From: a virus
Length of the DNA: 23,118 bases
Reading direction: 5' to 3' (one strand)
IMG/VR virus record: IMGVR_UViG_3300025891_000010
Span: 1-23,118 of that record
Of the stretch, positions 4,313 to 23,118 are shown piece by piece; within the stretch, counting starts at the first letter, position 1; each line of letters starts with the position of its first letter. Position numbers and translations under genes: made by a program. The notes beneath the pieces are model-generated. The model did not search any database. It saw only the letters and a program-made list of their open reading frames with translations, and was not told where the DNA came from.

Positions 4313-4585
4313 CTACTTTAATGTTTTATTAAAATTAGCCAGCCCGTTTGCACCAAGTGAAACTGATATTGAGGTCAAGATGTACAGTACAATGTCAAAC
4401 GGCACAAATGTTGCAGCTTGGAACTGCACCAATAAAATCAATATGAATGCCACCGCCGCAGAATAGTACTTTGTTTCCAGTTCCTTGATAAATGGCAACC
4501 CTTTTGTGAATTCCACTACCATAAATACTATTGTTACAAAGGTTGCATATGCAGCCAATAAATCCCATGTTATATAATCGTTCAT
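4313..4585 (-). CDS. Putative holin, 90 aa
   Basis: A small hydrophobic protein with three likely membrane spans: about residues 8-27 (LLAAYATFVTIVFMVVEF), 42-58 (AAVAFILILLVQF) and 63-80 (IVLYILTSISVSLGA), with charged linkers. Size, topology and a direct ATGA overlap with the stop of the lysin gene all support a holin that would perforate the membrane so that the lysin can reach the wall. The ribosome binding site AGGAGAAAATTAA lies inside the end of the lysin gene. The holin family cannot be named from sequence alone. Confidence 0.75.
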   Translation of the reverse strand: MNDYITWDLLAAYATFVTIVFMVVEFTKGLPFIKELETKYYSAAVAFILILLVQFQAATFVPFDIVLYILTSISVSLGANGLANFNKTLK

Positions 4586-5931
4586 TTAATTTTCTCCTCT
4601 ATCCATACATACTTGCCTTGATTTTTTAAATCTGCAAGCATTCTTTCCGCACCGCTTCTTGTTGTAAATGAAGCGTGTTGCTCAATAACTCTGTACAATG
4701 TTCCAACTTCTGTCGCTGGTTCAGGTTCCTTGACAATTGTTGGTTCTTTTATATATGGGATGTTAAGGTAGTTTAAAATACCTTTCACGTAGGTTTTTGC
4801 AACCAAATCTCTGAACGATGATGATTTTAACCTTGCAAGATCGCTTTGATTTGTGTGAAATCCTGTTTCAATCAATACACAAGCCATTGTTGTATCTCGA
4901 ACCATTGCTAAATGTGAGCCATCTTTAATACCTCTGTCAGTTAACCCAAGTACTGGCATCTCATTGTGTATTGCTTTGGCAAGTTTCTGCCCTTCGCCTG
5001 ATAATTTATAGTCGAATATTTCCCACCCGTTTGCACTGTTAAAATCTGTTCCGTAAGCGTTAGAGTGAATTGATACGCATATATCGCCCTTTTCAGCGTT
5101 TATTTTCTTGATTAGGGCAACTAGTTCGGTTGTTGCATTTGCGTTGCTGTAATCGACCAGTAGAGCCTCACAGGGGTATTGTATGAGTAGTTTAAGCATA
5201 CGGTTAACAATATCCAGGTTAAACTCATATTCATGGTATGTTCCGTCTGGTGACATTTTGCCCGCAGTTTTAGCGCTATGTCCTGCATCAAGTATTATCT
5301 TTTTCTTTGTTGTTGTCATTGGTGCTCCTATTCCTTGTATTCCATAGCCTTGAACAGTGCTTAAGTTTATTTTAATATCTGTTGAGTTAATTGCTGCAAT
5401 ATGACCTCCGTCAAGCCAAACTGCTTTTTCAAATCCACATTGTTTGGCATATTCGTTGCCTTGTGAACCTGTCATATTCTTAACGTAACATAGGTAAATT
5501 TTATTATTTTTTACTCCTATCAATGTATGATTCGTTAATCTGGTCACATCTGAATAATCGTAACTCTTGCCATCCTTTACAAACTTGCTGAATCCTTCCG
5601 AAGAAGGTGCATATTTGTCAAGTAATCCCATTCCGCCAACAGCCCATAGTACATTTGAACGATTAGGTATTTCCGAAGCGTTGATAAATCTGCCTATACC
5701 GAATGTACCGTCTTTGTATCGGTATAGTACAGTTTCAGGGAACCCCAACCAACCATGACATGAAGCTGGATAAATATTCACCCCTTTGTTTATCATAATT
5801 GAGCAAGGTTTTTGACCGCTTGGGTATGTGAATGAGCCACTAATTGTATTAGCCCACTTTGACAGTCCTGAATTGGGATCAAACAGCAGAATGTCATCTG
5901 CTACTATGCAAGGCATATTGTTTAATTTCAT
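4582..5931 (-). CDS. Phage lysin: phosphodiester-glycosidase-like domain, amidase_3 and SPOR-like domain, 449 aa
   Basis: This is a peptidoglycan-cutting enzyme with three parts. Residues about 1-200 resemble the phosphodiester glycosidase (NAGPA, PF09992) fold, including LIGVKNNKIYLCYV and the signature WLDGGH. Residues about 210-395 form an N-acetylmuramoyl-L-alanine amidase_3 domain, with zinc and catalytic residues visible in ILDAGH, HEYEFNL, SIHSNA and IETGF. Residues about 407-449 (LYRVIEQHASFTTRSGAERM) look like a SPOR-type wall-binding repeat. The start at 5931 is chosen because GGAGGAAATT precedes it, although the frame is open further upstream to 6021, inside the previous gene. There is no signal peptide, so release by the adjacent holin is expected. 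The amidase call is firm. The substrate of the first domain is unproven. Confidence 0.92.
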   Translation of the reverse strand: MKLNNMPCIVADDILLFDPNSGLSKWANTISGSFTYPSGQKPCSIMINKGVNIYPASCHGWLGFPETVLYRYKDGTFGIGRFINASEIPNRSNVLWAVGGMGLLDKYAPSSEGFSKFVKDGKSYDYSDVTRLTNHTLIGVKNNKIYLCYVKNMTGSQGNEYAKQCGFEKAVWLDGGHIAAINSTDIKINLSTVQGYGIQGIGAPMTTTKKKIILDAGHSAKTAGKMSPDGTYHEYEFNLDIVNRMLKLLIQYPCEALLVDYSNANATTELVALIKKINAEKGDICVSIHSNAYGTDFNSANGWEIFDYKLSGEGQKLAKAIHNEMPVLGLTDRGIKDGSHLAMVRDTTMACVLIETGFHTNQSDLARLKSSSFRDLVAKTYVKGILNYLNIPYIKEPTIVKEPEPATEVGTLYRVIEQHASFTTRSGAERMLADLKNQGKYVWIEEKIK

Positions 5932-5940
5932 AATTTCCTC

Positions 5941-5967
5941 CAATAAAAAGGGATCCGAAGATCCCTT
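5941..5967 (-). terminator. Rho-independent terminator overlapping the stop of the ejection protein gene
   Basis: The minus strand reads AAGGGATC-TTCG-GATCCCTT (5967-5948), a perfect eight-base stem with a UUCG loop, followed by TTTATTG. The stop codon TAA of the 1227-residue gene overlaps the first bases of the stem, and the lysin ribosome binding site follows within a few bases. The U-tract is shorter than at the end of the operon. It may act as a partial terminator that lowers lysin and holin expression relative to virion genes. Confidence 0.75.
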
Positions 5968-8900
5968 AACTAAACTGCCTCCCATATCTGCCAACTCCTT
6001 GTGAGATGTCAAAGGCTTCATATAAGATAACTAATTGGTTGTATGACAATCCAGGGTTTGCCTTGTCAATCATTCTCTTTTTAACTTCCGAACCAGTAAA
6101 GCCTTTTAGTGTTTCATAGGTCGAATTGTATTTACCGCCAAGACCACTTTTTTTAAGTGCTGTTGCGATGTCCGTACTAGTTTTACTAATTTCAAAAGTG
6201 CTGTACATATTATTTATGCTTTTATTCTGCAAGGCAAGAGCCTTTCCAATATTAGAAGATGCTTTTTTCTGTGCAAAATAGCCATCGTAAAACTGGTTAT
6301 AGCTTATACCATTTGATATTTGTTTTTGTGCTTTTGCGTAAATATCTTTGTTGTATAGTTTTAAAGCATATTCAGAACCGAAAACCTTTTTATTGACTTC
6401 TCTGTAAAGATCATCGGTGTCTTTGTAACTTACGGATAATTCTTCTGTGGCTTTTTCAACTTCTGAAAGCGAGTCAAGTGCTGTTTGTTCAATTCCATTG
6501 ATTAGGCTTTTTATGGTTTTAACTTTAGCTTTTTTCATTTGGTCGCTTTCCGAACTATTTTCAATTATTCGTATTTCGCTGTATAAATCGGAAGCCATAC
6601 TATTTTGCTTAGTCATATATCTGTATAGAATATCATTTGCATCTTGTCCATCGGAATCATTTTTTGCATAGTATATTTCATCTTTTTTATCATAAAACTG
6701 TTGGGTTACTTTATTACTTGTGACACTGTCAATAGTGAATGCTTTTGCAAACGGATTTGATTCTGCCTTTGGTGTTGTTAGTGGCATAGCAAAATCGCCA
6801 ATCACACCAGAATAAGCATTTAGCAAATAGTCAATTTTTTTAGGTGAATAATTTATTTTGCCACCTATCCATTTGGCTATTTCGGTTGTATTTTCATCGT
6901 ATCTTAACCCAGGTGAAAACTTTTCAAGTCTTTGCGGTTCTATCTTCCCACCAAACCAACTCTTATTGTTTGAGATTGCTATGGATGGTGAAAGTATGTT
7001 ACTGCTTATTGGCGAGATTGGAGCGACTTGTTCACTCATTGTTTTTAATAGCCCAGCATAAGCGTTTTCTTCTCCACCTATTGCCCTTAAAGTTCTTTGT
7101 GCTGTTGCTCCAAATAATGATAAAACTCTGCCTTTAGGTATTTTTAGCCATTCATTATCACCAAGTTTGATGATATAGTTAATGTCCTTATCTCTGTCAT
7201 ACAACTGTTGATATTGTGGATCATCTTTGTAAACCATTTCATTTATGAGTGATGGTGCAACCCCTAACGAGCCTGCTTTTAAAACAAGTTCTGTCCAACC
7301 TTTAACGCCTTTAGTTTCGGTAAATCTTCTTATCATCTTATCAGCCCCCTGCATTGCAGGATTGAAAAATGGAACGAATGTCGAGTTCAGGGTTTTACCC
7401 CATTTCCCGCTTCTTCCAAAGTTAACCGTTACATCTGCTGAATTGAACATTGCTTCCATTAGATTGTCATAAGAGCCATCGCCTTTAGAAACTGTTGCCA
7501 TAAACTCTGTAAATCTTGGTAGTTGCTCAATTGACATATTAAGTGTTTCAACTCTGTCTATTGTATTTTTTCTTAACCATGTAGGATCATTTTTGTAGCC
7601 TCTTGCATAATCAAAAAATGAGTTACCTGCGCCACCTAACGCTTTGTATTGTTGCCACATTTCACCATTTGTTGACATTTGTTTTACGGCTTCGGGATAC
7701 TTTTGTGCAAACTTCTTCAAGTTTTTAGAGTACAACCCTACATCTTGAATATCTCTTGCACCATTTCTCACTAAGAACATTGGATTCCAACCAGTGATAA
7801 GTTGCTTAAATGTTTTATTCCCTTCTGTCGCTGCTGCAATAAACGCATTTGGAGTGTCTTTTCCACCTGATATAGCTTGTAGTCCTTCAAATAGACTATC
7901 GTCAACTTTAACTTCGTATGCTTCACCATCCTTATAAATTCTAAAATGGTTTTTTAAGTCAGGTATATCTTTTAATTCTTTGTCTAAGTCTAAATCATCA
8001 ACTACACTTTGAATATCTTGAACATACTTTGAAGTTTTTTCGGTAGCATCTTTTATTAATCTATTGCCAAATATATTTTTATGTGCTGCTTCAACTACTT
8101 GCATTGTTTGTTTTGACATATTTTCATGTAAAGGCAGAATATCAGTGTTGCCACCCTTTGCAGTTTTAACGGTTTTTTCTACTGCCGCCATGTTTTTACC
8201 CGCTATTATACCTTTTGTCTTTGGGTTTGATCTGAATGTCGGTACATAATGAGGATACATTTCATCCCACATTTTAGCCTGTTCAGGTGTTACAAGCCCA
8301 CTATCTATTCTATATTGCATGTTGTTTTTATTAAAGTTATAAATTTCTTGTGCTAAGTTTGAAAATTCAGGGTTTGCTTTTAGCAAATCATCTGCTGCTT
8401 GTCTACTCATATCGGCTGTTACTGCCTCGCCAAATACAGGTTTGCCTTGTGCCATTCTATCAATGTTATGTTCATGCAAAAGGTAAAGCTGGAAGTCTTT
8501 GTAATATCCGTCACCCTTTTTTCTAATAGGGTTAAATATATCTTTGATTGATTTTCCAATTTTTTTACCATTAATGTTAGTTTGTGCTTCACCAATCATA
8601 TTTTCTGCTCTGCGCCTTGAATTTCTTGCGTTATTATAGACATGGTAAAGTCCTTTATCTTCGGAAATCTTACCAATCTTAGCAACGCTATCACCAGCAT
8701 CAATGAATTTTCTTTTCATATCACTGCCGAAATCTAAAACTTTTTCTTTAATGGTAGATTGCGTTTGCTTGCTAGATGTTAAAACATCCGCAATTTCTCC
8801 ATTATCAGTATATGGTTTATCTAAAACTACACCTTTACTTGGCTTCGTTATATTGGCGTTTGTAGCGAACACTTGTTCTTTTGGTATGTTTGTACCTAAA

Positions 8901-10771: not shown

Positions 10772-12931
10772 CTATTTGCTAATTCCACCGATAATCGCTG
10801 GTGCTGAAATACCTAATATTCTACATTTTTGTGTTGTAGAGCTGTTCTTAATTATGAACTTACCATTAACAAACCCTTTCATTTTAGGTTTCATATACTT
10901 TGCTTTTGGATTAGTTTCAGTTGTAAAGGCTAAAGACTTAATAAGAGTTTCCGGGTCCTTATCAGTCTGATAATAAACATCTGCTTTCGTTGCTGTTCCA
11001 TCTAAAAATAATTCAACCCATATAAAATTTACAAATTTCTTATACATGATAGTTCCGTAATTTATAAACCCTGTTTTAAAGTATGCTGTTATTGCTGTTC
11101 CATTATCTGTCAAACTTCCGTCAAGTGACATTAATTGCCCTGCGCTTGTGCCTAACGTAATCTTGTCAGCCTTGCATATAGAAGTTACAGTATCGGCAAA
11201 CTCGTAATAATACCAAGCATCTAAAACATAATTATAAATATAACATTCTTTAGCAAAACTAATCCAATATTCACCATCTTCCTCGTTGTCAAATGTGATA
11301 GCGTTTGTTAAAGTCTCTGCATCTAGTAAAGGTTGAACCTTAGTTGACATCAATACTGCATTGCGTTCATCACGAACATTTGATGACACAAATTGGTATA
11401 CTTTATTTTTATGAATTACTACTGGATTGTTTAGTATTACTTGTGTTGAACCTTTTACCATACAACCAACAACATCATTTAGTGGATAGATTGGGAATTC
11501 AACCCCTAATGTACTGGTGTACTCATAACTAGCCCATCCTGTCGAATCTTCTTTGAATATGATTAATCTATCATACTGCTTTGACAAGTCCATAACTTTG
11601 CTGTTATCGCTTCCCACTTTGATAAAGTTTAATGCAGGGAAGTATTCTGCCGAAGGAACACCGTCTGCTAACCCTGAATAGTAAATGTTATTATCTACTC
11701 CGAATATAAATACCCTTGTGTCATTCTTACCACCATAAAGCCTTGAATTGGTTTGTGCTGAAATGGTAGGGTATTCCGTTGTAGAACTTTGATATATAAC
11801 TGAAATGTTTTTATTACCAGCTGTTGGCATATCATATATTGTAATTAATCCCGTAGTTAAATTAGGACTATAACAGTAAGAACTGCCATATGTCATTGTG
11901 CCACTTCCTGCATCGCCATAGGTTATATAAGTCGTTCCACCTGATGTTGCTACAAGATAGAAATAATCTGCTTGCGGTTGTTTAACATAATATATTGTCC
12001 CTGCAACTAATGGTTGTGGTAAGTCTGCTCCCAAAAATACAACTTTAGTATATTGTGCCAGTCCATGAGATACTGAATTTATTTTTAAATCTCCTGTTGC
12101 ATTTGAGGCAGTAAAACTTTTAAATGCAGTTACCGCCACATCATTAAGTGTTACAGAAGTTACTGATGTAATATTTGTTTCATCTAATTGGAAACTGCTT
12201 TGTGAACCCGTACCATCAAACAATTGTGTCTTTGCTAAATTTGTCCAAACTATTTCAACATTGTCAACGCCAACTGCGGGTGCTGTTCCAAATGTAATTG
12301 TGCCAGCAGTTAAACTAACTGTATAATCCGTAGTCACTGTCATAAGTGCGCCAGCAACGTAAACCTTATCTACTGATGTAATGTTTACTTCTGGTAGAGT
12401 TGCAACCGTTTGACCTGCTACGCCATTAAATTTCATTCTTCTCTGTATAGATAAGTTATTGATACCCTCTTGTGCGGTTCCTGTACTTAGATCACCAATA
12501 TTACGTGAGTTCATCACTAAAGGAACATAACCTACTACATCAGATATAACCCCACTACCTGTCCATTTTTTAAATTCTGTACCGCTTTGAATATAAACTG
12601 CTGTACCAAAATAGAAGAAGTTAGTAGGTGCATCTGTAAGTGTGCCTAAATCGGTTGTCCCACCACCAGTATTGAATTTATAAATGTGTCCGTTGCTCGC
12701 AAATATGTGATAAAATGTTCCTGCTATATTACCGTACCATTGCCCTTTGATTGCGTGAGCTGTTGGAGCTGTCAACAAGGCAGTATACCCGCCCCGCTTT
12801 TCAGCATTATAACCTTTAGTAATGGTGAAGTTCTTCATATCTGACAGTTCGCCAACCGCAAGTTCGGTATCTCCTAAAGCATCGCTGTGTAGTCCGAGAA
12901 ATTTATCTATATTCAGATTTACTGTTTTCAT
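10772..12931 (-). CDS. Podovirus tail nozzle / tail-tubular-B-like protein, 719 aa
   Basis: The N-terminus (GLHSDALGDTELAVGELSDM, then KNFTITKGYNAEKRGGY) is the usual opening of tail nozzle proteins in short-tailed phages, in which residues around 'N-T-RKRPGY' are typical. The later half has repeated beta segments with many Tyr, Trp and Asp, such as YDRLIIFKEDSTGWASY and YYYEFADTVTSICKAD, as in a beta-propeller. Two related beta modules occupy about residues 165-235 and 237-380, the second interrupted at about 272-350 by another small domain. The protein would form the distal tail tube attached to the adaptor. The start at 12931 follows GGAGGAATTTAA. The nozzle identity rests on N-terminal pattern, length and gene order. 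Confidence 0.72.
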   Translation of the reverse strand: MKTVNLNIDKFLGLHSDALGDTELAVGELSDMKNFTITKGYNAEKRGGYTALLTAPTAHAIKGQWYGNIAGTFYHIFASNGHIYKFNTGGGTTDLGTLTDAPTNFFYFGTAVYIQSGTEFKKWTGSGVISDVVGYVPLVMNSRNIGDLSTGTAQEGINNLSIQRRMKFNGVAGQTVATLPEVNITSVDKVYVAGALMTVTTDYTVSLTAGTITFGTAPAVGVDNVEIVWTNLAKTQLFDGTGSQSSFQLDETNITSVTSVTLNDVAVTAFKSFTASNATGDLKINSVSHGLAQYTKVVFLGADLPQPLVAGTIYYVKQPQADYFYLVATSGGTTYITYGDAGSGTMTYGSSYCYSPNLTTGLITIYDMPTAGNKNISVIYQSSTTEYPTISAQTNSRLYGGKNDTRVFIFGVDNNIYYSGLADGVPSAEYFPALNFIKVGSDNSKVMDLSKQYDRLIIFKEDSTGWASYEYTSTLGVEFPIYPLNDVVGCMVKGSTQVILNNPVVIHKNKVYQFVSSNVRDERNAVLMSTKVQPLLDAETLTNAITFDNEEDGEYWISFAKECYIYNYVLDAWYYYEFADTVTSICKADKITLGTSAGQLMSLDGSLTDNGTAITAYFKTGFINYGTIMYKKFVNFIWVELFLDGTATKADVYYQTDKDPETLIKSLAFTTETNPKAKYMKPKMKGFVNGKFIIKNSSTTQKCRILGISAPAIIGGISK

Positions 12932-15368: not shown

Positions 15369-16295
15369 CTATACACTTCCATATTTGTTAATAATTCTAA
15401 TTACTGGTTTTGGCTTTTTAATTTGAGATTTTGCCATTAATACTTGATACTTGTTTTTAAATAGTCCTGCAAGGTAATCGTTTTGTTCTACATTCATAAA
15501 GGCTTCTGCTAACATGTATGACATAATATTCCCTGAAAAATCGTCAATCATTATATCATCTGTTACTGCTGTTATTTCTTCTGGATTAGGAACGTACGTT
15601 ATTAAAACTTCTCCTTCAAAATTTCTGCCAAATAGTATTTCCGTTCTATTACCTTTTCGTTCAACTTCATATTCAGGACTTACTGCATAATTATCTCTGT
15701 ACCATTTGAATATCACATCTTTAATCGAGTGGCAGTCTATTGGCATTGGTATTCTAACCCTTGCACCATAGTCAAAGAACCTGCTTATATTGGATAATGC
15801 TTCTGTGTGCAAAGCAACGTTTCTATACCTATAATAGTACGAACCACTGAATACTATACGAGACTTTGTTGCGCCCGCTGTAGGCGTTATTAGAGCCTTG
15901 TAAGGCGTAAATCCATAACCTATGTTTGTTAGATTTACTGTTGCTAAAGTAGTCCATGCTCCGTTGTAATCTTCAATCTTAACTATTCCGCTTGATGCAT
16001 CGCTTTCAAAATAATATATTCTGGCAACATCGGTTGACTCAATTGTGACATCAGTGTCAAAATGCTCACTGACAGAAAAGTGATCACCTCCTGATAGAAT
16101 GTTCTTAAAAGGCTTATATGCGATTGGATATTTTGTAAACAAGTCTCCGCTTTTAATTAACTCCATCTGAAACAGGTTAATAAGGAACGGAGTTCTTGCT
16201 AAATAATCGGCTGTATTGGCAGTATCGACTATCCCTGCATCGGTTATCCCGTCAACGAGTGCTATTGCCCGTTCAAATATTTCATTAACTGTCAT
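15369..16295 (-). CDS. Head-tail adaptor-like protein with inserted jelly-roll-like domain, 308 aa
   Basis: The outer parts (residues about 1-75 and 165-308) are helical and resemble the portal-binding adaptor of short-tailed phages, including ARVRIPMPIDCHSIKDVI and a C-terminal basic tail. Between them, residues about 78-165 form a beta-rich insert with VTIESTDVARIYYFESDAS and RIVFSGSYYYRYRNVAL, an arrangement seen in adaptor proteins of other podoviruses, where it decorates the connector. The start at 16295 follows AAGAAGGAGAAAATA. It lies between the lectin-like target protein and the tailspike. The assignment is based on layout and gene order. A different tail-base protein is possible. 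Confidence 0.65.
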   Translation of the reverse strand: MTVNEIFERAIALVDGITDAGIVDTANTADYLARTPFLINLFQMELIKSGDLFTKYPIAYKPFKNILSGGDHFSVSEHFDTDVTIESTDVARIYYFESDASSGIVKIEDYNGAWTTLATVNLTNIGYGFTPYKALITPTAGATKSRIVFSGSYYYRYRNVALHTEALSNISRFFDYGARVRIPMPIDCHSIKDVIFKWYRDNYAVSPEYEVERKGNRTEILFGRNFEGEVLITYVPNPEEITAVTDDIMIDDFSGNIMSYMLAEAFMNVEQNDYLAGLFKNKYQVLMAKSQIKKPKPVIRIINKYGSV

Positions 16296-16312
16296 TATTT
16301 TCTCCTTCTTAG

Positions 16313-16330
16313 GCAGAATGCAATATCTGC
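16313..16330. repeat. Short inverted repeat downstream of the variable region
   Basis: The sequence GCAGA-N8-TCTGC forms a five-base stem about 60 bases after the variable region, between the target gene and the adaptor gene. Diversity-generating retroelements often have a hairpin or cruciform just downstream of the variable region. This one is weaker and further away than in the well-studied example, so the link is tentative. Confidence 0.25.
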
Positions 16331-16367
16331 TTCTTTTCTACCATATTATATTTTTGTATTTGTTTTA

Positions 16368-17549
16368 TTATGTAGCACTTAAAAATGAAAGGCGAGAGCC
16401 GAAGTGCGTGTCCGTAATCGAAGCAAGAGCGTGCAAAGCCGCACAATGCGAACCAACAAGAAGACCATAGTACCAAGTGCCACCGACTAAAGCATAGTCA
16501 ACTTGTGAAGTGTTGAAATATAATCCATCACAATAATATGTTGTTCCACTTCCGCTTGCAGTTTTAGGTATAAACCCCATTTCACTATCTACTTTTGCAG
16601 TATTTACGTATCCACCATTAGTTCCACTTGGCGTTATAGTAGTATCTGTATACCCTGTTGCATCAAAATTATAAGGAGGAGTTAGCTTGGTTTTTATTGT
16701 AGTTGCTAAAATTAATCCTGCCATGCCCTCCCAAACATTACCCCAAAATCCTTCTATACCGAATACTTTGACATCACTTGTCTCATCATTGTATCCAATA
16801 AATTGTGGAAGTGTTTTAAGTGTGCCTGTTGCAATGGCAGTTGTATTTGTTGATTTACTTCTACCACTTCCAAAAGAAACTTGGGAATTATCTGATTTTG
16901 AGATTAATGTAAGTAAATTTCCAATGTAATCCCATCCACTCTTATAAATTGTGTAATACCCTGCGCCATTATCAGTCGCCCTTGATACTTCAACATTTCG
17001 TGTTTGCCCAGACATAACTGCTTGGTCTGCAATACTTCTTAGATGGGTGGAATAAATTCCCTTAAATGCTCCCCAATAGAATGTATCTTTTATATTGGCA
17101 TTTGCATTTTGAAATGCGTATGCCTTATAATTTGCGTCCCATTTTACATTTGAGCAGATAAAATACTCATAGTTTGCATCTTCATACTGATACACCCATT
17201 TGTATTTTTTAAATTCAATCATTGCATTTCCTGCGTATGCGGTATCTGATATATCACTTGCCGATCCATCTATTTTTTTAGTAAAGTCTGCCCGTGATAA
17301 TTCATAATCTACTGTACCGTCAGTTTTTAGCATTACTGGTCTTTGCACTTCGTTTACAAATGCTTCCCAACCACCATAATTAAATGCACCACCAGCAAAA
17401 TCCATATATGCAGGAGTTAACCCAACTGCATCATATAAATATGTTATTCTTGTTGCAGCGTTTGATTCTGTCTTTGTTCGCATAAATCCGTATCTTTTAG
17501 CAGATTCCAACTTACTAGTTAAAACTGTTCTTTCAATTGTAGGGTTCAT
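16368..17549 (-). CDS. Putative DGR target protein with C-type-lectin-like fold, 393 aa
   Basis: The C-terminal 150 or so residues have the pattern of the lectin-like (FGE-sulfatase/Mtd) fold used by diversity-generating retroelements. GIEGFWGNVWEGMAGL is the core motif, and the end reads ALVGGTWYYGLLVGSHC followed by GSRLSFL. In such proteins the last loop is hypervariable and binds ligand. The N-terminal half is mixed alpha and beta (for example VLTSKLESAKRYGFMRTKTE) and would anchor it in the virion. The start at 17549 follows TATAAGGAGGGTAAT. The gene sits between a probable head protein and the adaptor. The last 30 or so codons are adenine-poor, as described in the separate entry. No reverse transcriptase lies nearby. 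Confidence in the fold is high, and in active diversification moderate. Confidence 0.85.
   Translation of the reverse strand: MNPTIERTVLTSKLESAKRYGFMRTKTESNAATRITYLYDAVGLTPAYMDFAGGAFNYGGWEAFVNEVQRPVMLKTDGTVDYELSRADFTKKIDGSASDISDTAYAGNAMIEFKKYKWVYQYEDANYEYFICSNVKWDANYKAYAFQNANANIKDTFYWGAFKGIYSTHLRSIADQAVMSGQTRNVEVSRATDNGAGYYTIYKSGWDYIGNLLTLISKSDNSQVSFGSGRSKSTNTTAIATGTLKTLPQFIGYNDETSDVKVFGIEGFWGNVWEGMAGLILATTIKTKLTPPYNFDATGYTDTTITPSGTNGGYVNTAKVDSEMGFIPKTASGSGTTYYCDGLYFNTSQVDYALVGGTWYYGLLVGSHCAALHALASITDTHFGSRLSFLSAT
16391..16484 (-). other. Candidate DGR variable region (VR)
   Basis: This is the 94-base 3' part of the target gene, from the codons for GGTW to GSR. By hand count the coding strand has 10 adenines (about 11%) and about 55% G+C, although the surrounding gene is A-rich and AT-rich. 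Most codons at the lectin binding loop are NNY: ACT, TAC, TAT, CTT, CAT, CAC, GCT, ATT and GAC. This is the outcome expected when AAY codons of a template are mutated at adenines. The invariant frame (Gly-Gly, Trp, Gly-Ser-Arg-Leu) is retained. Confidence 0.75.
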
Positions 17550-17559
17550 ATTACCCTCC

Positions 17560-18084
17560 TTATACCGTTACAGTATTTAATAAAATTGTGTAAACTGCTG
17601 AAACTGCTGGTGTTTCTGCGCCAATACATTGTAACTGACCGTACAGTGCAGTTCCTGCAAGTTTGCAAGTGAAGTTCATATTATTGTCAATTGCAATGCA
17701 GTTATCCCCACAATCTACCAATAATGACAATGTTATATAACCCAAGTATTTTGCTGCGTCTGCTGCTATTACATTGAACGCTGCATTGTCTGCTATTGCG
17801 GTTGGTGCTGCATTATATAAGTGTAGTCGATATCCTGCGTGTGCTGTTGGAAGTGCGTTGATTGCATACTTAACTCTTGATCCTAATATACATATCATAT
17901 CCCCTGCTGTACCTAATGATGAGAAGGTCATTACTTCCCCTGCTGCTGTTGATACCACATCTAAAGCGCCATGTATGGCTGTATCTCCTGCTAGTGTAAT
18001 TGTTGCAGATGCTTGTCTACCTGCATTTGATGTACTTTTATCAAGCCAAGTATAAAGTTTTGCAGCTATTTGATTTTGTAACAT
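17560..18084 (-). CDS. Probable virion (head or head-fibre) protein, 174 aa
   Basis: The start at 18084 follows CCGAAAGGGGAAAAACAA. It is an alanine-, threonine- and glycine-rich beta protein. The segment LYNAAPTAIADNAAFNVIAA followed by AKYLGYITL recurs in structural proteins of many phages of Gram-positive and other hosts, found near the capsid genes. Its cysteines do not form a metal site pattern. It is separated from the lectin-like target gene by ten bases, so it might form the base to which that protein attaches. That pairing is inference. No enzyme motif is seen. Confidence 0.6.
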   Translation of the reverse strand: MLQNQIAAKLYTWLDKSTSNAGRQASATITLAGDTAIHGALDVVSTAAGEVMTFSSLGTAGDMICILGSRVKYAINALPTAHAGYRLHLYNAAPTAIADNAAFNVIAADAAKYLGYITLSLLVDCGDNCIAIDNNMNFTCKLAGTALYGQLQCIGAETPAVSAVYTILLNTVTV

Positions 18085-18133: not shown

Positions 18134-18433
18134 TTATTCTTTTGGATGCTTTTCGCTATAATGTTTCATTAAGACACCTTGATTCGTACAGGTATAATCA
18201 CATTTTTTGCAGTGCCTTATTGTTTCTTTCTTAATTATTGTGTCCTTTGTTATTATAATTTCTTCATCTTCTTCTATTACCTGAAAGTGCTTTTTCATTC
18301 TGTTAATTACTTTGGTGTCATTCGTTTCAAATATCCCATCAGCACTGAATCTGCCTATTTTTTTATTCTTTCTTACAAACCCTACTCTGTAAACCATACT
18401 TACTAGGGTGTTTGGCTCTCCTTTAAATTTCAT
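18134..18433 (-). CDS. Small head-module protein with C-terminal C2H2 zinc finger, 99 aa
   Basis: Residues 1-60 are like the small protein that often follows the coat gene in phage head modules, including FSADGIFETNDTKVI, where a strand is followed by a helix. The C-terminus carries a classical zinc finger, CKKCDYTC with later histidines, spaced C-x2-C-x12-H-x4-H with hydrophobic residues at core positions, at residues about 74-95. The start overlaps the stop of the endonuclease gene (ATGA), and its GGAGGAG ribosome binding site is made of the last codons of that gene. Such eukaryote-like fingers are rare but known in phages. The finger may bind nucleic acid or protein. The N-terminal assignment is tentative. 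Confidence 0.7.
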   Translation of the reverse strand: MKFKGEPNTLVSMVYRVGFVRKNKKIGRFSADGIFETNDTKVINRMKKHFQVIEEDEEIIITKDTIIKKETIRHCKKCDYTCTNQGVLMKHYSEKHPKE

Positions 18434-18981
18434 TGCTCCTCCTTTGCTAAATAATTAATAGCAGATTGAAGGATATCAATATTATCTTCAACCATTCCAA
18501 GCATTAAATTACATCTTGAACATAACAAGCCTCTAACATCGCCGCTTTTATGACAATGGTCAATTGATATCTGTTTACACTGATCTAGTTCAATGTAGCA
18601 AACGCAACATTTATTGTCTTGTTCTAGTAGCATTTTGTCATAAGTACCTGGTTCAATACCGTAATTCTTTTTTCTTTTCCGTTCTTTAATTTGTTCTAAA
18701 TTATTTTCTCTGTATTTTTTAACTCCTGCAATTATAGCTTCTTTATTTTTTTGATAGTATTCTTTTCTTTTTTCTGTATATTCTTCTTTACTTTCTTGAT
18801 AGTATTTTGCTCTAGACTTTGCCACTTTTTCTTTATTGTTTTCACGATATATTTTCATTTTGGCTAATGCTTCTTTTCTGTGTTCTTTATAATGTATTTT
18901 TCGTTTCTTATTAATTTCTTCTTTATGCTCTTGCCACCAACTATTTTTATATTCTGCTAAATATGGTATTGCTTTTTCCAT
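18430..18981 (-). CDS. Endonuclease VII-type HNH homing endonuclease, 183 aa
   Basis: The C-terminal half is a His-Me finger nuclease of the recombination endonuclease VII type. It has a CCVC pair, then ISIDHCHKSGDVRGLLCSRC followed by N, with the histidine pair for catalysis and two CxxC pairs for zinc. Residues 15-104 are six tandem units of exactly 15 residues, for example YRENNKEKVAKSRAK and YYQKNKEAIIAGVKK, giving long basic helices likely to contact DNA. The start at 18981 has GGAGGTG upstream, although the frame is open 15 codons earlier. It lies inside the head module, where such free-standing mobile genes often insert. No intron borders were seen, so a free-standing homing gene is the best call. 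Debranching of phage DNA is the alternative. Confidence 0.88.
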   Translation of the reverse strand: MEKAIPYLAEYKNSWWQEHKEEINKKRKIHYKEHRKEALAKMKIYRENNKEKVAKSRAKYYQESKEEYTEKRKEYYQKNKEAIIAGVKKYRENNLEQIKERKRKKNYGIEPGTYDKMLLEQDNKCCVCYIELDQCKQISIDHCHKSGDVRGLLCSRCNLMLGMVEDNIDILQSAINYLAKEEQ

Positions 18982-19012
18982 AATACACCTCCGATATGTA
19001 TCCGAAATAATA

Positions 19013-19066
19013 GGGGAAGAAGGCAATTCGGAAGTTGCTTTTCAGTCTGCATAACTTATCTTCCCC
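19013..19066. repeat. Nested inverted repeats upstream of the endonuclease gene
   Basis: An eight-base inverted repeat, GGGGAAGA and TCTTCCCC, encloses about 38 bases. Inside it a second small stem, GCAA with TTGC around an eight-base loop, lies off centre. On the transcript of the minus strand this could fold as a long hairpin with a side stem between the decoration gene and the endonuclease. No U-tract follows, so it is not a clear terminator. It may help processing or mark the edge of the mobile gene. Confidence 0.4.
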
Positions 19067-19575: not shown

Positions 19576-20442
19576 TTAAATTGCACTTTCTGCAGCCCAA
19601 GTACAAATCATCTTGCATAATTCGGCTGGTTTAACAACTTTAGCTCCGAATACCAATAGACCCGAAAGCCCCTTGTCAAATGAAGATTCCAAATCCATCA
19701 TTCTTGATTCGCTTAATACATCTTCATAGACGATAGCATTGTAAGAACCACCAATTATTGTGGAAACTGGTGCTGCTGCTGTCCCTGAATTATAAACATT
19801 GTTTGATACAAATACATCAAGGTCAAGGTAATTAGCCCATTCCATACCGCCAGTACCACTGATACCATTGTTGATCTGGAATTTAACTCCTGCCAGGATT
19901 AGTTTTTCTTTAATCCAAGGTGGAATAACAACAAATTTGTCGCCCGAATTAACATTCTGTTCCTCAAGCACTCTTGAGAATGTTGAAATATCTGATAGAA
20001 TAGTTGCTGAATCGCAAGTTGCGTCTGCAGTTAAAGTGTTTCCTGCGTCTACAATTGCTGGTGAAGTGGATGTCCCAAAGATATAAGTATCTACTGCCTT
20101 TTTCAAGGTGTAAGCTGCTCTTGATGCCTGCGAACCCTTAAGGTCTACATTAGCCATGAATGCTTCTACATCAGTTACTTTGAATGCATATTTGTACTGT
20201 TGGTCGATTAACAATGCAACCTGAGATGAAACCAAAGTCTCATAAATGATTGAACCTGTGTAAGCGTCAACTGTTGGGTCTGCAAGTCCGTTAAAATAAA
20301 CTGTATCTCCTGCGCCCTTTGCTTTGATTGATGGTACTGCTTTACAAATCTGTCTTGCAATTAAATTATCTTCTAGTGTACGTAAAATTTGTGTATCCCA
20401 AATCTGAGGTACGAACGCATCTGCGTTTATATTTGCTGTCAT
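19576..20442 (-). CDS. Major capsid protein, 288 aa
   Basis: The coat protein expected in the HK97 fold. The N-terminus (TANINADAFVPQIWDTQILR) and the helix NLIARQICKAVPSIKAKGAGD are typical of the phage coat N-arm and E-loop region. FVVIPPWIKEKLILAG and GGSYNAIVYEDVL correspond to the P-domain and A-domain strands in similar proteins. Place and length fit: it follows a scaffold and is followed by a decoration protein. The start at 20442 follows AAAGGAGAAACACA. It would form the icosahedral shell together with the scaffold. The assignment is firm, while the subtype (P22-like or other) is not resolved. Confidence 0.88.
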   Translation of the reverse strand: MTANINADAFVPQIWDTQILRTLEDNLIARQICKAVPSIKAKGAGDTVYFNGLADPTVDAYTGSIIYETLVSSQVALLIDQQYKYAFKVTDVEAFMANVDLKGSQASRAAYTLKKAVDTYIFGTSTSPAIVDAGNTLTADATCDSATILSDISTFSRVLEEQNVNSGDKFVVIPPWIKEKLILAGVKFQINNGISGTGGMEWANYLDLDVFVSNNVYNSGTAAAPVSTIIGGSYNAIVYEDVLSESRMMDLESSFDKGLSGLLVFGAKVVKPAELCKMICTWAAESAI

Positions 20443-21363: not shown

Positions 21364-23091
21364 CTATTGCGTTGGCTGTTGTTCTTGCGGTTGTGACATC
21401 ATCTGTATTACTTGCTGTTCCATTTGGTCTGCTGGTAACGACTTTAACGCTGTCTGTTGCTCTACTGGTAGACTGTCAAAGAATGCTGCCATCTGTTCGT
21501 TGTCTGCTTCTGTGAGCATATTACCTTGTGGTTGTGGTTCTGGCATTGATGCCATTGCTTTAAGTTCCGCTATTAAACCTTCTTTGTCTTTAAGCATTCC
21601 ATCATCTAATTGATCCAAGAATTGAATAGGTGTTAATACTGAATTTTGTAACATTTCAGTTAGAAGTATTCTTGATTCTTGTGCATCCCATATAGGCGAA
21701 TATCCAACTTCTATTTTAGTATTTAATATCATTTTCTTTCTTAAACTAGCATCAAATTTCTTATAAATAACTTTGCCATTTTCTTTAACAGGCATTAATC
21801 TTCCATCGCCATATTTCTCAACAATAAAGTCGCCCCATATTGCGTAAATATCTTCAACAAATTGGAATGTTCTGTCTTGGTTGCCTTTAAGTAATATTGA
21901 CGATTGCTTGATGTTTGTTATCTGTGCTGATGTATTATATGAAGTTCCTGCACCTAAAGCAGCTTCTGTAACTCCGCAAAATCTTAATGTTGTATTAATT
22001 GCATTATCTATTACAGATAAAATTGCTGAATTAAAGTCTCCTGACCTTAATTGCATTATTACATCACTAACTGCACCATTTACTGGTTGTGCTACTCCAA
22101 CATCATTTGTAATACCCTCACATCTGTTTTCGTCATAAACTATTTTACCAAATGCGTTATTTATCATCCAAAGCATACACAAAGCGTACATTTTATTGAT
22201 AAATCTTTGAGTTGTATGAAGTCCGGACGATTCAGGTCTGCCATGATATGAGTTTTCCTGTGTTTCCCAATTACCCCAGGTTATAGGATAGCCACCTTCC
22301 TTTATCTTTGATTTCATTTTAAGATGAACCAGTGGAGTTTCTTCATCAAGATAAACAACATCATCTTCTATGTAATAAGTCAAATAAGTATCAACTATAC
22401 TGTCGTCATCATCTACATTATCAGCTCCAATATTTTTTAATTGGCCTAATTGTATATCCGTGTTTTCATTTGATACAATTTTATCAATTTTATCTTTTGA
22501 AAGTCCAAATGCTTTAGCTCTTTTTTTAACTGACGAAACAGTTTCAGGCTTTAATATCAATATATAAGGTTGTCCTTTGACTGTATTCAGTTTTGGATTG
22601 CCGAAAAATACGTTTCCACCACTGATTCGTTCAGTTATGAAGTCACCTTTAAGTTCTTGATTGGTTTTTTTACCATGATCCCAGTAGGTATGAGTACACA
22701 TATCGCCTGTTAGCCAAGAATCTTCAACACATTTACGCAAAACTGATATCATTTTATTGCGTTCCCATCTAACTGATGCTGAATCTGACAATAATTTAGC
22801 CATATCTGCTAAAGCTTTGTTATCTTCATCTATTGCTTCTTCATCTACTGCATCTATCAAGTATTTTGCCTTTACAGATGGTGATATAATTGAAGAAGTC
22901 TTATATCTAAATATCATTTTTTCAACATTAAACACAGGCGTAGGTGTAGAACCTTCTCCAAGTTTACTACCCCACTGTTTGTCTGCGTTATAATCAATAT
23001 TTTCTGATACTTCTGCATAATAATCCAATTTGAGATTATAATTATAACCTCGTTGAAATCTCGCAAAGGCTTTCGTTTTTGTGTTTTCCAT
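21364..23091 (-). CDS. Portal protein, 575 aa
   Basis: The dodecameric gate of the head for DNA entry and exit, and the base of the tail. The N-terminus shows YAEVSENIDYNADKQWGS, a common portal opening. The middle part has an alternating strand and helix pattern with FITERISGGNVFFGNPKL and the long stem helix RPESSGLHTTQRFINKMYA. The last 60 residues are rich in Gln and Pro, as in the tail of many P22-like portals. The start at 23091 has AAAGG six bases upstream, with a second AAAGG slightly further away. It is the first gene of the visible late operon, and terminase would be expected beyond the right edge. Confidence 0.87.
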   Translation of the reverse strand: MENTKTKAFARFQRGYNYNLKLDYYAEVSENIDYNADKQWGSKLGEGSTPTPVFNVEKMIFRYKTSSIISPSVKAKYLIDAVDEEAIDEDNKALADMAKLLSDSASVRWERNKMISVLRKCVEDSWLTGDMCTHTYWDHGKKTNQELKGDFITERISGGNVFFGNPKLNTVKGQPYILILKPETVSSVKKRAKAFGLSKDKIDKIVSNENTDIQLGQLKNIGADNVDDDDSIVDTYLTYYIEDDVVYLDEETPLVHLKMKSKIKEGGYPITWGNWETQENSYHGRPESSGLHTTQRFINKMYALCMLWMINNAFGKIVYDENRCEGITNDVGVAQPVNGAVSDVIMQLRSGDFNSAILSVIDNAINTTLRFCGVTEAALGAGTSYNTSAQITNIKQSSILLKGNQDRTFQFVEDIYAIWGDFIVEKYGDGRLMPVKENGKVIYKKFDASLRKKMILNTKIEVGYSPIWDAQESRILLTEMLQNSVLTPIQFLDQLDDGMLKDKEGLIAELKAMASMPEPQPQGNMLTEADNEQMAAFFDSLPVEQQTALKSLPADQMEQQVIQMMSQPQEQQPTQ

Positions 23092-23118
23092 TATACCTTT
23101 GTCCTTTCTCCATTAAAG

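Follow-up and report, generated by a model that had tools for sequence, protein, structure and literature searches.

A phage tail-family gene of lectin fold with the probably orphaned variable region of a diversity-generating retroelement

Efficient homing by the diversity-generating retroelement (DGR) of BPP-1 requires a GC-rich inverted repeat that directly follows the variable region (VR) (PMC3240598). In a reconstituted system, deletion of the stem-loop impaired homing severely, not completely (PMC12875486), so that a missing hairpin is no proof of inactivity. TaqVP (5vf4) is a DGR variable protein whose crystal structure shows a C-type-lectin fold (PMC6328139). Among crAss-like phages of genus I, VRs were reported in 80 analysed genomes, and template repeats (TRs) in only 30 of these (PMC7290462). 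Targets that have lost the reverse transcriptase (RT) go uncounted, because DGR surveys start from the RT.

The DNA considered here, hereafter the window, is a stretch of 23,118 nt, positions 1 to 23,118 of the IMG/VR virus record IMGVR_UViG_3300025891_000010. The features relevant to the analysis all lie on its minus strand:

15369..16295 (-), next structural gene, 308 aa, conserved in the phage relatives L005 and L025.
16296..16367 (-), 72-bp gap past the VP stop, the site of the target hairpin, the TR and then the RT in RT-carrying relatives; here AT-rich, with no GC hairpin, TR or RT.
16368..17549 (-), variable-protein (VP) gene, 393 aa, a free-standing C-type-lectin-fold protein, phrog_5302 'tail protein'.
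16371..16400 (-), conserved 3' end GGCTCTCGCCTTTC..., with the GSRLSFL end; putatively where relatives have their IMH element, judging by position and conservation.
16392..16484 (-), VR core, 31 codons from GGTW to GSR, aligned without gaps to the VR and TR of relatives.
16725..16742 (-), GNVWEG motif, residues 270-275, invariant among near relatives.
17560..18084 (-), preceding gene, 174 aa, in the head-gene cluster.
19576..20442 (-), major capsid protein (phrog_267; Phage_capsid_4), which marks the head-gene cluster holding VP.

The VP sequence was assigned to the tail protein family phrog_5302 by a PHROGs search (E = 9e-72), and no Pfam model matched it in a Pfam search. A profile of 21 VP relatives, run by hmmsearch, found a single PDB sequence, 5vf4 (E = 4.4e-9). 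The AlphaFold model of VP was obtained from a 21-sequence input, an earlier 9-sequence model being too poor, and reached a pTM of 0.83, with the VR loop modelled at low confidence. Structure alignment of this model with TaqVP gave Z = 17.0 over 251 residues, spanning residues 70-391, the next chain scoring 2.9. VP therefore shows, by profile match and by model, the C-type-lectin fold with a C-terminal VR that characterizes DGR variable proteins. The motifs named in the original prediction, GNVWEG, GGTW (residues 356-359) and GSRLSFL (residues 384-390), were all found in VP at the places given for them. The domain would bind a ligand on the host surface.

The base composition of the VR was recounted on the coding strand. 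The reverse complement of 16391-16484 contains 10 A, 26 C, 26 G and 32 T, that is 10.6% A and 55.3% G+C, in agreement with the predicted 10 adenines (about 11%) and about 55% G+C within an AT-rich gene; the VP gene body (first 1060 bases) has 36.9% A and 35.6% G+C. This segment is the 94-base A minimum of the coding strand, and all tied stretches overlap it. The lowest 93-base stretch not overlapping the VR has 17 A, and 100,000 rounds of 31-codon resampling from the gene body gave a minimum of 16 A. As also predicted, the loop has no AAN codon (0/31) and mostly NNY codons, 24 of the 31 ending in a pyrimidine. The templates of the relatives are themselves low in A (only 21-24 per 93 bases), because their fixed positions avoid this base; A-mutagenesis would then remove more.

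VP relatives were collected from IMG/VR and GTDB genomes, for a total of 25 loci, including L002, a contig near-identical to the window; the VP alignment search of GTDB genomes yielded one VP locus, with TR and RT. Homologues 53-72% identical to VP carry a VR, a TR and an RT, and their VR and TR differ at A only. Complete DGR anatomy was found in 15 loci, always in the order VR loop, GC-rich hairpin, TR, RT, with the RT adjoining VP downstream in each of the 15; since several of these loci are near-duplicates, the independent cases are fewer than 15. Where VR and TR are separate copies, the TR of the RT-carrying relatives starts 49-121 bp past the VP stop. One locus (L013, 10001-11164) has VR and TR apparently merged into one copy, with a VR-like start and a TR-like end, directly before the RT, which seems to be the result of assembly collapse or of VR-TR recombination.

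Seven relatives (L003, L004, L006, L007, L009, L010 and L036) were aligned over the VR core. Compared with its own TR, each VR is equal at all 69-72 non-A sites and shows 10-14 changes at A sites. The closest template for the window is the TR of L004, whose VP is 71% identical to that of the window. At its 21 A sites, 8 are kept and 13 are changed in the window VR, and of the 72 non-A sites 58 agree (P = 3.6e-4); the 14 non-A differences may reflect lineage divergence, mutation after freezing or both. All eight AAY codons of the L004 TR are replaced in the window by other NNY codons (ACT, TAC, TAT, GCT, CAC, GCT, GAC, CAC), which is the signature of A-mutagenesis. A DGR origin of 16391-16484 is strongly supported by these relatives. 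The proposal that the segment is a DGR variable region thus stands as far as descent is concerned, on the VR, TR and RT of the relatives and the TaqVP fold; it does not extend to a DGR acting in this phage, as the record contains no TR, RT or hairpin.

The gene is also free-standing. In the 13 loci of relatives for which the full reading frame was examined, the VP domain terminates a larger protein of 479-1240 aa; the window alone has it as a gene of its own, of 393 aa. This gene is flanked by the capsid cluster and by the conserved 308-aa structural gene. In L005, which shares 85% capsid identity with the window, there is no VP at the corresponding site between the conserved neighbours, and L025 has a short gene at the site matching the VP position. 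VP may be placed on the head surface or act as a separately attached tail part.

Within the same head-gene cluster, the window contains an Endonuclease VII-type HNH gene (phrog_2914; 18430-19026, minus strand), of which L005 and L025 have no homologue there. Elsewhere in the window, the minus-strand gene at 4582-6021 codes for an endolysin-like protein, with a weak phosphodiester-glycosidase (NAGPA) match and an N-acetylmuramoyl-L-alanine amidase; a homologue of this protein lies directly after VP, TR and RT in L003.

The remaining parts of a DGR were sought in the window and beyond. A check proposed with the original prediction, for a close copy that carries A wherever the VR mismatches it, gave a negative result: no TR is present in the 23.1-kb record, in which no ungapped partner of the VR rises above random level. 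No PF00078 match was found in the record, while 9 of 12 relatives' records match in the same search. The near-identical contig L002 (9.5 kb) has a VR identical to that of the window and contributes a further 2.2 kb, with what reads, from its translation, as a terminase-like gene; it contains no RT and no TR, the best ungapped partner of the VR being again at random level. IMG/VR was also scanned with three patterns, one strict and one relaxed for the 5' half and one relaxed for the 3' half; none gave a TR matching the window VR, and only the known VR and TR copies of L002, L003, L004 and L027/L038 were returned. Extension of the contig leftward by exact 47-mer gave no match. The window and L002 differ at 33 positions, all of them in a portal-gene stretch of about 650 bp at the window edge (22459-23112 in the window, 2220-2873 in L002), with no differences in the next 6.6 kb; our reading of this cluster is a strain mosaic or an assembly switch.

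The target hairpin is located 8-21 bp past the stop codon in 15 of 15 RT-carrying loci, with imperfect stems in L004 and L037. Its loop in the near clade is GCCCA, GACCA, GCTCA, GGCCA or GGGCA, i.e. GNNCA; such five-nucleotide loops occur just past the VP stop in L003, L004, L006, L007, L009, L010, L036 and L037. In the three loci without RT (the window, L005 and L038), no GC-rich hairpin follows the VP stop, which suggests that loss of the hairpin goes together with loss of TR and RT.

L038 (record IMGVR_UViG_3300033562_000310) is informative in this respect. From its ORFs, this 31.9-kb genome is apparently a near-complete siphophage, extending from terminase through tail genes, lysis, integrase and early genes, and neither RT nor TR was found in it. 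Past the VP stop it reads TAGTCGGGGTTTGGGGCTGACCAA, the same as L004 through the left arm and loop of the hairpin, and then breaks into the leader of the next gene, found in place of right arm, TR and RT; the half hairpin itself, left arm and loop TTTGGGGCTGACCAA followed directly by that leader, lies at 11141-11165. This half hairpin is the legible scar left by deletion of a TR-RT cassette. In L005 the junction is clean, and the small gene downstream is the same. Between the L038 VR and the L004 template, 69 of 72 non-A sites agree; silent sites of the two loci agree at 17 of 19 positions in the VR vs 8 of 31 in the gene body (P = 1.1e-5). Because its silent sites match so much better, the VR of L038 was either copied from an L004-like DGR or exchanged with one after the gene bodies had diverged, and most likely the cassette was lost after this copying or exchange. 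A general silent-site excess in VRs was also considered; it became weaker once A-ending codons were removed, was strongest for the pair L038-L004, and was not applied to the window.

Taken together, the window VR is probably that of a receptor-binding domain made by a DGR, now orphaned and frozen. A cDNA copied from the template repeat, with errors at A, would have replaced the VR segment. The domain would then have lost TR, RT and target-site hairpin, or have been acquired without them; the window has no deletion scar. It would also have become detached from a large tail protein, and it now stands alone within the head-gene cluster. One variant would thereby be fixed, its VR changing from then on by ordinary mutation, and the remainder of the genome would presumably be without TR, RT and hairpin as well.

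The strongest competitor is a DGR that is still active, with TR and RT in the part of the genome outside the contigs and still rewriting the VR. The related Bacillus phages Pascal, Pony and Page have genomes of about 40 kb, their relation to the window being through one structural protein; about 25.3 kb have been seen, L002 included, and roughly 15 kb are unseen. The record is thus an incomplete fragment, and the missing stretch may contain a remote RT and TR. An adjacency-based survey would miss remote targets, according to Roux et al. (PMC8144416), and the VR 3' end GGCTCTCGCC is intact. Against this, every one of the RT-carrying relatives has its RT directly downstream of VP, the hairpin is gone from the window, the IMG/VR scans for a TR were negative, and L038 presents the orphan state within a near-complete genome; an active remote element is therefore considered unlikely.

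Supply in trans, by which a co-infecting phage, a prophage or a host DGR would provide TR and RT and rewrite the orphan VR, is suggested by L038 itself, an RT-less locus whose VR follows the L004 template at non-A and silent sites as given above. This match is explained equally well by writing or recombination before the cassette was deleted, because the same block also contains the hairpin scar. Moreover, with 14 non-A mismatches to the closest template, pairing of the window VR would be poor, and the hairpin is missing from the window, L005 and L038 alike, which makes this alternative very unlikely. That the locus is unrelated to DGRs, a lectin-like tail protein with a GC-rich, A-poor 3' end due to chance or codon choice, agrees with the lack of a template in the record but is extremely improbable given the extreme A depletion, the DGR variable protein as best structural match and the A-templates paired with the homologous loops of relatives, whose TR/VR pairs rule out a chance GC-rich gene end.

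A more general proposal, in our opinion quite unlikely, is that DGR-made binding domains are detachable cargo, moved without the mutator from a tail protein to a head-cluster gene, and either keeping the winning variant or borrowing TR and RT in trans. For the window itself, the preferred reading of an orphaned and probably frozen VR shifts the interpretation from active hypermutation to a probably frozen product of hypermutation. Within the VP family, L038 documents at least one loss of RT, its scar still legible inside the target hairpin, and the family forms a natural set for following the fate of a hypervariable binding site after diversification stops.

Comparison with known systems places the locus as follows. 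TaqVP, from a Thermus aquaticus prophage (5vf4, PMC6328139), shares with VP the FGE-type C-type-lectin fold over residues 70-391 and a VR at the very C-terminus, framed by GGxW...GxR; identity is 14-16%, and TaqVP has a complete DGR cassette, whereas neither TR nor RT is seen for VP. Closer in sequence are the IMG/VR loci L003, L004 and L037, with a VP domain 65-71% identical (the VR frame and length being the same in L003 and L004), and the Butyrivibrio phages Idris and Arawn, in which the gene for the homologous tail protein is followed by an RT gene and the VP domain is 42-43% identical. Unlike the window, all of these have the RT beside VP and the VP domain at the end of a larger tail protein, and the IMG/VR relatives also have hairpin and TR. 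The loops of the near relatives' hairpins, of five nucleotides (GNNCA), differ from the four-nucleotide GRNA consensus described in other phage DGRs. The mtd/avd/brt DGR of BPP-1 likewise has an A-directed VR in a receptor-binding protein of lectin fold, but with hairpin past the stop codon, TR and RT, none of which is seen in the window. The incomplete cassettes of crAss-like genus I phages (PMC7290462) resemble the window in having a VR-bearing target without template; those phages often retain truncated RT and target genes, while in the window no RT remnant is seen and the target gene is whole and relocated. As orphaned targets are already known from crAss-like phages, the window would be a further example of an orphaned DGR target, and its distinctive points among these are the relocated, free-standing gene and the missing target hairpin.
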